Assembly: GCF_021887715.1 (NCBI RefSeq) | Contig: NZ_JAIQXX010000001.1 | Span: forward strand, 248,001-312,000 | DNA from: Winogradskyella immobilis | Lineage (GTDB): Bacteria > Bacteroidota > Bacteroidia > Flavobacteriales > Flavobacteriaceae | DNA length: 64,000 nt | Direction of reading: 5' to 3' | Shown here: positions 41,377 through 43,923 of the stretch, one piece after another | Position numbering within the stretch: position 1 is the stretch's first letter | Layout of the letters: each line of letters begins with the position of its first letter | Position numbers and translations under genes: made by a program | Notes under the pieces: generated by a model | What the model was told of the DNA's origin: nothing | The model's database searches: none | The model's input: the letters and a program-made list of their open reading frames with translations, nothing else

Positions 41377-41829
41377 ATGAGTTTACAAGTAGATATTATG
41401 ACTGCTATGAAAGCAGCAATGAAAGATAAAGATCAAACAGCATTAGCAGCATTGAGAGCTGTAAAATCTGAGATTTTATTAGCGCAGACGGCTTCTGGTA
41501 CTAAAGAAGATTTATCTAAAGATGATGAAATTAAAATTTTATCTAAGCTTGTGAAACAACGTAAAGATAGTGCTACTATTTTTTTAGATCAAAATAGAAC
41601 AGATTTAGCAGAACCAGAATTGGCACAAGCTAAAATAATCAGTCAGTTTTTACCAGAACAATTAGATGAAGTTGCGATAACAGAAGTCGTTGTTAAAACG
41701 ATAGCAGATCTTGGCGCATCAGGTATGAAGGATATGGGGAAAGTTATGGGAATTGTAAACAAACAATTAGCTGGTAAAGCAGATGGAAAAACAATTTCTA
41801 CTATTGTAAAAACACAATTAATGCTGTAA
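41377..41829 (+). CDS. GatB/YqeY domain protein
   Basis: 150 residues, helical, with the YqeY blocks ALRAVKSEILLAQ (about 24-36) and EPELAQAKIISQFLPEQLDE (about 74-93), plus the C-terminal GKVMGIVNKQLAGKADGK. It resembles the tail domain of the tRNA amidotransferase GatB, which touches tRNA, but stand-alone YqeY proteins have no proved activity. Length is typical. It follows the dcw terminator and is on the same strand as, and 54 bp before, the tRNA half copy. Confidence 0.88.
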   Translation: MSLQVDIMTAMKAAMKDKDQTALAALRAVKSEILLAQTASGTKEDLSKDDEIKILSKLVKQRKDSATIFLDQNRTDLAEPELAQAKIISQFLPEQLDEVAITEVVVKTIADLGASGMKDMGKVMGIVNKQLAGKADGKTISTIVKTQLML

Positions 41830-41847: not shown

Positions 41848-41869
41848 ACCTTGAGCGCAGTCGAAAGGT
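41848..41869. repeat. Short dispersed-repeat-like hairpin after yqeY
   Basis: ACCTT and AAGGT arms enclose GAGCGCAGTCGA. The core GAGCGCAGTCGAA is a sequence I know as a recurrent intergenic repeat in Bacteroidota genomes; only one copy was noticed here. It lies 14 bp before the tRNA half copy. Confidence 0.5.
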
Positions 41870-41883
41870 CTTTCATTTCATTA

Positions 41884-41935
41884 GGCCTCGTAGTTCAACT
41901 GGATACCTGCCTGCCGCAGGCAGGGAATATCAGAT
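41884..41935 (+). pseudogene. 5' half copy of tRNA-Arg, split by a palindrome
   Basis: Bases 41884-41905 equal nt 1-22 of the intact tRNA-Arg at 42175, and 41925-41935 equal nt 23-33, so 33 of 33 bases are kept. Between them lies a 19-nt palindrome (41906-41924) in the D-arm position. The copy ends at the first base of the anticodon loop; the 3' half is absent, so it cannot make a tRNA. Confidence 0.9.
41906..41924. repeat. Perfect 19-nt palindrome inside the tRNA half copy
   Basis: CCTGCCTGC and GCAGGCAGG around a single C. It is exactly absent from the intact tRNA, where nt 22 and 23 adjoin, so it is a clean insertion with no lost base. It is much richer in GC than its surroundings and looks like a small mobile or REP-like sequence of Flavobacteriaceae. 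Confidence 0.8.
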
Positions 41936-41941
41936 ATATAA

Positions 41942-42184
41942 ATGTATTATGTTTATGTAATAAAAAGTAAAGTAGATGATCGCCTATATAAAGGTATGAC
42001 TAAAAGGTTAGGAGAACGTATAAAAGAACATAATTCAGGTAAAACAAAATCAACTAAAGGTTACATGCCTTGGGAATTAGTATATAAAGAAATATTAAAT
42101 ACAAGAAAAGAAGCTAGACAGCGTGAAAAATTTTTAAAATCAGGTAAAGGAAGAGATTTTTTAAAACAAATATTGGCCTCGTAG
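41942..42184 (+). CDS. Small GIY-YIG endonuclease domain protein
   Basis: 80 residues, nearly all a single GIY-YIG nuclease domain of the UPF0213/YhbQ-like kind. The two sheet motifs are YYVYVIKS (2-9) and LYKGMTK (15-21, YKG in place of YIG); Arg26 in RLGERIKEHN is the expected catalytic Arg, and Glu57/Glu62 in the EARQREKFLK helix supply a metal-ligand candidate. There is no added DNA-binding domain. Stand-alone proteins of this type are found in several copies in many Flavobacteriaceae genomes, with unproved function. Its last sense codons (Ala79, Ser80) and the TAG stop are nt 2-10 of tRNA-Arg, so gene and tRNA overlap by 10 bp. Confidence 0.85.
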   Translation: MYYVYVIKSKVDDRLYKGMTKRLGERIKEHNSGKTKSTKGYMPWELVYKEILNTRKEARQREKFLKSGKGRDFLKQILAS

Positions 42185-42248
42185 TTCAACTGGATAGAAT
42201 ATCAGATTTCGGCTCTGAGGGTTGGGGGTTCGAATCCCTTCGAGGTCA
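42175..42248 (+). tRNA. tRNA-Arg (anticodon TCG)
   Basis: 74 nt with full cloverleaf: acceptor GGCCTCG/CGAGGTC (one G-U), D stem GTTC/GAAT, anticodon stem TCAGA/TCTGA with loop TTTCGGC, T stem GGGGG/CCCTT with loop TTCGAAT, discriminator A. The 3' CCA is not encoded. It is preceded by the GIY-YIG gene, whose stop codon lies inside it, and followed by a very strong terminator. A half copy lies 291 bp upstream. Confidence 0.93.
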
Positions 42249-42260
42249 CTACTATATTAA

Positions 42261-42307
42261 AAAGTTGTACATACAAATTTATTTTAATTTGTATGTACAG
42301 CTTTTTT
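42261..42307 (+). terminator. Strong terminator after tRNA-Arg
   Basis: A 19-bp stem (42261-42279 with 42286-42304, one T-G pair) with the 6-nt loop TATTTT and a T-run. It is the first terminator after the one behind ftsZ, so yqeY, the GIY-YIG gene and the tRNA can share a transcript. The remaining 185 bp up to 42492 are AT-rich with no clear element. Confidence 0.85.
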
Positions 42308-43452: not shown

Positions 43453-43923
43453 ATGTATACGATTACTATTGTTGCTGGAGCAAGACCAAATTTTATTAAA
43501 ATTGCGCCAATCATTAACGCCATTAAAAAATCTAATAACAATATTACTTATAGATTAGTGCATACAGGTCAACATTATGATAAAAACATGTCAGGCAGTT
43601 TTTTTGAACAACTAAATATTTCTGAACCAGATATAAATTTAGGATGTTCAGGAGGTACACAAGCTGGGCAAACAGCAAGTCTTATGTTAGCTTTTGAAAA
43701 AGATCTTATAGAAAATCCTACGAATTTAGTTTTAGTTGTTGGTGATGTAACTTCAACTATGGCTTGTGCTATAGTGACTAAAAAACAAAACACTAAACTA
43801 GCACATTTAGATGTGTTATATACTGACCAATGGAAAAAAGGACAAAATATACCTTTATGGGATGGAAAAGCAACCGAACGAATAGTTAATGTAATTATAG
43901 AAAAACTTGAGGTTAAGAGTTAG
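43453..43923 (+). pseudogene. wecB: UDP-GlcNAc 2-epimerase (wecB) with large internal deletion
   Basis: The frame is open for 156 residues, but a complete epimerase has about 370-380. Residues 1-118 are the N-terminal half of the first Rossmann domain (VAGARPNFIKIAPI, TGQHYDKNMSG, VVGDVTSTMACAI, ending KLAH where the family goes on with the VEAG motif). From about 127 the sequence is the C-terminal end of the family (WKKGQNIPLWDGKATERIV). About 220 residues with the catalytic Glu and His are missing at the join near 43807, while the frame is kept. The remnant cannot be a working epimerase. No polysaccharide genes adjoin it, and it overlaps the facing rpe by 11 bp. Confidence 0.85.

Follow-up and report, generated by a model that had tools for sequence, protein, structure and literature searches.

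A GIY-YIG nuclease gene between a split and an intact tRNA-Arg copy

The window analyzed here is a stretch of 64,000 nt from Winogradskyella immobilis. The locus described lies on its plus strand, next to a conserved open reading frame (41377..41829) that we take to be yqeY and that forms the left neighbor of the insertion site. Downstream of this frame, the 5' part of a tRNA-Arg is present as an interrupted copy (the relic), in which tRNA positions 1-22 (41884..41905; 22/22 identical to 42175-42196) are separated from positions 23-33 (41925..41935; 11/11 identical to 42197-42207) by a hairpin, the 19-nt near-perfect palindrome CCTGCCTGCCGCAGGCAGG (41906..41924), which splits the relic at tRNA position 22|23. 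In total, 33 tRNA nucleotides are spread over 52 bp (41884-41935). Six bases after the end of the relic, the reading frame of an 80-aa GIY-YIG nuclease begins (41942..42184), and its TAG stop codon (42182-42184) coincides with bases 8-10 of an intact tRNA-Arg(TCG), called by ARAGORN at 42175..42249 and matched over the same stretch by Rfam RF00005 (61.1 bits; L004). Relic and tRNA are spaced 291 bp from start to start. An inverted repeat followed by a T run (42259..42306) is probably the terminator of the tRNA transcript.

An earlier note on this DNA had described a repeat of the first 33 nt of tRNA-Arg at a spacing of 291 bp. The copy and its spacing stand; its contiguity does not, as the copy consists of 22 nt, the 19-nt hairpin and 11 nt, and the 239 bp given as the distance between the copies is right if the insert is counted into the first copy. 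The second copy is complete, as stated, and the 80-residue GIY-YIG protein was confirmed by Pfam (PF01541, E 2.5e-16, residues 1-69 of 80), with no other Pfam family found. That this protein should be the only one encoded, without an integrase, agrees with its gene being the sole ORF of at least 50 aa in the 239 bp.

The hairpin was absent from that description. It has one site in the window (both strands, up to 3 mismatches) and none in 100 shuffles, and is therefore not a chance occurrence. It also has a single site in the whole 3.0-Mb genome at up to 2 mismatches, which led us to reject it as a genome-wide repeat here; relics at other tRNA genes are split by the same or similar palindromes. 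A group I intron with a homing gene was rejected as well, since no intron family matched the locus at Rfam gathering scores and the tRNA was the sole match. Just 5' of the relic lies an imperfect palindrome, ACCTTGAGCGCAGTCGAAAGGT (41848-41869), similar copies of which occupy the same place in some relatives with an empty site (L083, L086, L117, L125) and are absent from others. Further downstream, a 156-aa ORF at 43453-43923 resembles, by eye, a UDP-GlcNAc 2-epimerase minus its middle.

Ten GIY-YIG matches were found in the genome of the window, eight of them in short reading frames. One (L008:1436-1863, G000:C8) is a second element with the plan of the first, situated at tRNA-Asn in the order tRNA bases 1-14, hairpin TCCCGATAACTATCGGGA (in the D-loop of the relic), GGTTAGAG, nuclease and intact tRNA-Asn. 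A further match lies beside tRNA-His (L005) with no visible relic, L006 sits at a contig end, and no tRNA was called in the fetched stretches of L001, L002, L003 and L007. The small GIY-YIG genes of L001, L002 and L003 are flanked, by eye, by dispersed repeats of the CTTCGACAAGCTCAGTGTGACA and GTCATTCCTGCGAAGGCAGGAATC types, so an association with different repeats may exist in other GIY subfamilies. The palindrome paired with the tRNA-Asn element, TCCCGATANCTATCGGGA, occurs at 20 exact sites of this genome. Six of the 19 that were read (L042-L060) lie by eye in tRNA-like sequence (Val, Asn, Leu, Met, Ala-like and Leu), one of these being the tRNA-Asn element itself, and at L042, L047, L052 and L058 the gap between relic and tRNA is too small for a gene. 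The tRNA-Ala(GGC)-like sequence at L054:1440-1530 has the palindrome in its D-loop and, by eye, a poorly paired acceptor stem; ARAGORN called no tRNA there and it is apparently a pseudo-tRNA.

Empty and occupied sites within the genus

The yqeY gene was located in 58 of 60 same-genus genomes and the stretch after it was read in all 58; G026, in which the contig ends inside the tRNA, was set aside, leaving 57 assessable genomes. The earlier note had predicted that relatives would show empty sites, and this is what was observed in 53 of the 57, each with one uninterrupted tRNA-Arg beginning within 70 nt of yqeY. The four occupied sites are those of the window, G050, G012 and G044. In G050, the hairpin differs from that of the window, is placed 7 nt earlier and is accompanied by a nuclease from elsewhere in the nuclease tree. 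Two tandem units of 301 bp are present in G012, with a nuclease that groups loosely with that of G050. In G044, the hairpin sits at the position seen in the window and the relic is kept, with the nuclease gene shrunk to a short spacer. The nucleases of the window and of G050 and G012 thus occupy the same tRNA gene from different parts of the tree and with different hairpins and hairpin positions, so that two or more nuclease lineages seem to have invaded the tRNA-Arg gene after yqeY.

This tRNA-Arg(TCG) gene itself occurs as very different alleles within the one genus, GTTCAACTGGATAGAAT versus GCTCAGCTGAATAGAGC, with a third form at L121 (L081-L137). In G012 (L062), the relic has the GTTCAACTGGATAGAAT form and the tRNA the GCTCAGCTGAATAGAGC form, with differing acceptor stems, as if the tRNA had been replaced on arrival of the element.

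Homologues beside tRNA genes of many bacteria

Nine such proteins, of which eight came from relatives, were combined into a profile. Searches with this profile covered 299 family genomes, 140 of which had a match at E 1e-12, and GTDB contigs. The best 80 of at least 538 loci were kept from the GTDB contigs, and family-genome matches were taken in score order down to E 2.6e-23, skipping two broken fragments, which yielded 145 distinct loci (L145-L293) with protein score as the sole criterion. At 137 of these 145 loci, a tRNA was found on the strand of the nuclease; its distance was always between -66 and 150 nt, and it lay downstream of the nuclease at 114 loci and upstream at 23. ARAGORN called no tRNA at the remaining eight; three are contig ends (L209, L216, L292) and the others hold a tRNA-Arg split by a hairpin (L271), a tRNA-Met 3' half plus relics (L287), a tRNA interrupted by a group I intron (L192), a tRNA-Leu of which part was masked (L233) and a tRNA slightly below the Rfam threshold (L293). 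In contrast, only one of 18 lower-scoring GIY loci of the genus (L024-L041) had a tRNA in the fetched stretch (L028). At L192:1730-2185, a single tRNA gene, probably tRNA-His (anticodon loop CTGTGG), is preceded on its 5' side by a GIY element and also contains, in its anticodon loop, a group I intron identified by Rfam.

A larger set of 163 loci joined 19 genus loci to the score-chosen ones. Because six of the 19 (L062, L069, L071, L072, L073 and L075, from 20 stretches) were picked for having a tRNA, the headline counts above were limited to the 145. Of the 14 stretches left out, two repeat L018 and L019 and the rest (lower-scoring GIY genes and the L061 array) had no called tRNA; as duplicates, five loci were removed for the 163-locus set and two for the relic test below. 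In the larger set, loci were typed by the position of the tRNA, which lies on the 3' side at 129 loci (5'-type, the form with a duplicated 5' part) and on the 5' side at 26 (3'-type, the form with a duplicated 3' part). It is more than 200 nt away at L019 and L021, and the tRNA-Gly called at L018 has a palindrome for an anticodon arm. The stop codon of the nuclease falls inside the tRNA at 89 of the 129 5'-type loci. More than one GIY reading frame was present at 25/163 loci, many of them tandem units of about 290-490 bp, the others a single frame broken in two or separate genes. The maximum is an array of up to eight GIY frames at L287 (G232), whose units, read in two stretches, contain a copy of the terminator and a 3' tRNA-Met relic split by a hairpin; outside this set, a tandem array of seven GIY frames was found at L061 (G011).

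Hairpin-split relics across loci

Relics were identified by a two-segment match to a tRNA copy split by 10-74 nt, a test that favors well-kept relics. A split relic was detected at 110/132 5'-type and 17/26 3'-type loci (127/158 overall), leaving 22 and 9 loci, respectively, where this test found none; within the score-chosen set it was detected at 96/114 loci with the tRNA downstream and 17/23 with the tRNA upstream. Controls on the 132 5'-type loci gave no match with the reversed tRNA, none with shuffled upstream sequence and two with a tRNA of another isotype. Homologues thus adjoin duplicated tRNA parts at many other tRNA genes, a recurrence that the earlier note had named as support for its model. 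The insertion at the anticodon loop that it had proposed is not general, as the end points of matched relics range over tRNA positions 14 to 62 (L186 was left out of the comparisons of relic identity and end point).

Among 5'-type loci, the split site 22|23 was the commonest (39/110), and relics also carry hairpins at 9|10, 11|12, 14|15, 24|25, 32|33 and elsewhere; a few split positions were misparsed (L022 and L073, where the true hairpin is in the T-loop). At 3'-type loci, a mirror-image form that goes beyond the earlier 5'-half model, a second copy of the tRNA 3' part lies downstream of the nuclease and is split mostly in the T-loop region or at the anticodon loop. Relics split at 22|23 were identical to their own tRNA over bases 1-22 in 29 of 38 cases, with a test that favors good matches, and the repeat begins some 4 nt before the tRNA, with an identity of 0.52-0.64 at positions -4 to -1 compared with a background of 0.33. 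The insert is usually a hairpin starting CCTGCC or CCCGCC, and the commonest one, the 20-mer CCTGCCTGCCGGCAGGCAGG, accounts for 15 of 108 distinct inserts. At L139 (G043; minus strand, ~655-770), a second tRNA-Leu copy with two hairpins, one in the D-loop and one in the T-loop, lies downstream of the intact one.

The nuclease is conserved and follows tRNA isotype

Y5, Y16, R26 and K66 are invariant in 147/147 aligned homologues, and H30 and E62 are present in 146/147; Y5, Y16, R26 and E62 are presumably the catalytic residues. Most of 120 homologues listed are 77-100 aa long, and where names are shown they read "GIY-YIG nuclease family protein", "putative endonuclease" and the like. Among 15 pairs compared, one (L013-L168) was misaligned and dropped, and dN was lower than dS in all 14 usable pairs, by 2.6 to 39 times and mostly by 4 to 15, indicating that the nuclease gene is under purifying selection.

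On a short tree of 147 nucleases with poor resolution (70 of its 142 inner branches are open), tRNA isotype required 17 changes, compared with a mean of 64 (minimum 59) after shuffling, and isoacceptor required 36 compared with 102. Isotype follows the tree more closely than hairpin position (40 changes vs 64 shuffled), which does so only partly, or 5'/3' type (16 vs 23). A clade of 27 nucleases, all beside tRNA-Leu (support 98), is spread over Bacteroidota (Chitinophagaceae, Cyclobacteriaceae, Sphingobacteriaceae and members of the family of the window), Nomurabacteria, Gracilibacteria and Saccharibacteria. The 68 rows with a phylum label cover ten such labels; many of these rows are metagenome-assembled, so single ones may be misplaced. 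At E 1e-3, the window protein matched one phage record (of 50,697) and two plasmid records (of 72,556), and a phage or plasmid origin was rejected. Five loci were on viral contigs, with a tRNA called in one, and the PHROGs gave a weak homing-endonuclease match (phrog_314, E 3.1e-5). PADLOC defence models gave no match, and a defence gene was rejected on that basis.

A candidate homing cassette of tRNA genes

We consider it probable that the locus is a very small mobile cassette of roughly 290 bp, specific to tRNA genes, which acts like a free-standing homing endonuclease gene and keeps its tRNA intact. Nuclease clades that follow isotype, empty sites, repeated entry and tandem arrays are the traces that a tRNA-specific homing nuclease would be expected to leave; cleavage, mobility and a role for the hairpin are inferred. 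The unit would comprise the hairpin, the rest of the tRNA 5' part, the GIY-YIG gene and a fresh tRNA 5' part. Placed inside a tRNA gene, it would leave the old 5' end upstream as the hairpin-interrupted relic, and a complete tRNA would be re-formed downstream of the nuclease gene; in the mirror form, the intact tRNA would be kept on the upstream side. In an empty genome, the nuclease would cut the cognate uninterrupted tRNA gene, and the break would be repaired from element-bearing DNA, in which the relic would align with the 5' side of the break and the intact tRNA with its 3' side. Since tRNA sequence makes up both homology arms, homing could take place between species with unrelated flanking DNA. 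The minimal element with a preserved host tRNA that the earlier note had envisaged is in keeping with both the empty sites and the homologue loci. The repeated 5' half may be carried by the element, or the target may be duplicated upon insertion.

By turning the relic into a non-gene and shortening the direct repeat, the hairpin would hinder re-cutting and loss by repeat deletion, and cutting of the re-formed intact tRNA would give rise to the tandem arrays observed. The hairpin may protect the relic from cutting, lower recombination between repeats or be the mobile unit itself. A hairpin marking the cut site was not supported, since its position follows the nuclease tree only partly (40 vs 64 changes).

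As in homing genes, a GIY-YIG domain with intact active-site residues is encoded outside any intron or intein (the group I intron of L192 is separate, lying inside the tRNA after the nuclease), and element-free alleles occur alongside recurrent invasion (53 empty and 4 occupied of 57). Several observations count against the homing reading, among them the loci at which no relic was detected and the partial agreement of hairpin position with the tree. The re-formed tRNA is itself an uncut target, so something must restrain self-cutting. The acceptor-stem mismatch in G012 is not predicted by a simple 5'-half model. Characterized GIY-YIG homing enzymes of the SegB and I-TevI type have a separate C-terminal DNA-binding part, which the bare 80-aa domain lacks.

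The presence of relatives in many tRNA genes of distant bacteria suggests that a whole family of very small mobile elements has been overlooked. A large group of homologues with generic GIY-YIG names would gain a genomic niche and a testable role, and the arrangement illustrates a way in which a tRNA gene could house a selfish nuclease with no intron involved, by leaving a complete tRNA behind. As tRNA genes are conserved, the homology arms of such a cassette would serve in different species and phyla; this could account for its spread and perhaps for the replacement of some tRNA alleles. A partial tRNA copy next to such a gene is not necessarily an assembly error.

Alternative explanations

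A different arrangement of roles, which we regard as improbable yet worth weighing, would make the hairpin the mobile unit and the GIY-YIG protein its mobilizer, comparable to RAYT for REP palindromes. Hairpins would then be inserted into stem-loop DNA, chiefly tRNA loops, and tRNA duplication would be a by-product or a condition of survival, a version we likewise think unlikely. The 20 letters of CCTGCCTGCCGGCAGGCAGG favor this idea in that they are unchanged in relics of different phyla (Bacteroidota, Uhrbacteria at L200, Nomurabacteria at L241 and Margulisbacteria at L240) and occur at different tRNA positions. The exact 20-mer was found in 19 of 120 family genomes at up to 18 copies and is dispersed in some (12 copies in G133, 18 in G153, 10 in G165). 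Genomes with it hold a close GIY homologue more often than those without (14/19 vs 40/101, hand-taken counts; Fisher p 0.011). Hairpin-split tRNA copies also exist without an intervening GIY gene (L298, L306, L307, L042, L047, L052, L058, L131). When one dispersed site per genome was read, 5/19 touched tRNA sequence (L295, L298, L304, L306, L307), three of them (L298, L306, L307) lacking a GIY gene (partly by eye). However, 14/19 had neither a called tRNA nor a GIY gene nearby. Moreover, the genome of the window holds just one such hairpin, hairpin families vary between loci (TCCCGATANCTATCGGGA, TCCGCC..GGCGGA), and the clades of the nuclease agree better with the tRNA than with where the hairpin sits.

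We also entertain, as a tentative view, that GIY-YIG nuclease and mobile hairpin form a new class of mobile element that cuts and rebuilds structural-RNA genes across phyla. Such a class, put forward with the same reserve, would have no transposase, integrase or intron, the tRNA serving as target, homology arm and rescue gene; if true, it would be a natural cut-and-rescue drive of about 300 bp.

Domestication, by which the nuclease and the split half-tRNA would regulate or protect the tRNA (processing, defence) without mobility, is very unlikely. Purifying selection on the nuclease gene would fit such a host function, as would co-transcription with the tRNA, which is probable because the nuclease gene ends inside it. 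These points are countered by the patchy presence at the tRNA-Arg site (4/57), the different nuclease lineages at that site, the many isotypes, the decayed and gene-less copies, the tandem arrays and the lack of a PADLOC match. Slightly less credible still is a tandem duplication of the tRNA followed by decay, in which a GIY-YIG gene happened to land between the copies. Duplication of tRNA genes and decay of relics both occur, but the same three-part order at 127 of 158 tested loci and many isotypes, the recurrent hairpin positions, the empty sites and the 29/38 relics split at 22|23 that match their own tRNA over 22 nt speak against it. Finally, genomic islands use tRNA genes and carry restoring pieces, but the scar of a tyrosine-integrase island with the tRNA as attachment site can be practically dismissed: 239 bp are too small for an integrase gene, the GIY-YIG gene is the only ORF of at least 50 aa in the window's element, the hairpin splits the repeat, and the duplicated part, judged by the position of the tRNA, is 5' in 129 and 3' in 26 of 163 loci.

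Comparison with known systems

We return to the homing cassette as the preferred reading and set it beside systems with which it shares parts. In sequence, the bare domain is related to UPF0213 (presumably YhbQ-like) and Slx1 GIY-YIG proteins (PDB 1zg2, 1ywl, 6seh), although these matches are weak (E 8e-5 to 0.03) and silent on mobility. REP palindromes with their RAYT transposases and Rickettsia palindromic elements are short dispersed hairpins, some of them inside genes, and like the window element they pair short hairpins with a candidate partner enzyme. The RAYT partner is an HUH (Y1) transposase, which was not found here, where the partner is GIY-YIG and relics stand beside an intact tRNA.

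GIY-YIG proteins are also encoded by non-intron insertions in CPR rRNA genes, with Patescibacteria among the hosts and most insertions at the top or base of stem-loops; the survey regarded its GIY-YIG insertions as falling outside homing-driven spread (PMC11270868). Like the window element, they place a GIY-YIG ORF in a structural-RNA gene without a group I or II intron. In contrast to the window element at its tRNA, they interrupt the target rRNA gene, and the words "tRNA" and "palindrom" are absent from the main text as consulted (PMC11270868). No description of a hairpin-split tRNA relic or a re-formed tRNA was found in open-licence full texts, including the consulted parts of a survey of the GIY-YIG superfamily (PMC1564403), and the letters of the hairpin as a query found no paper there.

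In action, the closest system is SegB of phages T4/T6. This GIY-YIG enzyme is free-standing, belongs to a tRNA region and cuts within tRNA genes; it causes its own tandem amplification together with a tRNA and is found near many isotypes (PMC13096335, PMC2988022). Both have a GIY-YIG nuclease outside introns, between tRNA genes and with tandem amplification, and by our own reading the SegB motif RAWTSGAAC matches the T-loop read backwards. SegB has been described from phages, and the consulted parts of these papers mention neither a hairpin-interrupted tRNA relic nor a re-formed tRNA, nor a stop codon in the tRNA or the tracking of one isotype per clade (PMC13096335, PMC2988022). Unlike SegB, the window protein is a bare 80-aa domain. 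By analogy, the element would work like SegB while not being a member of the SegB family.
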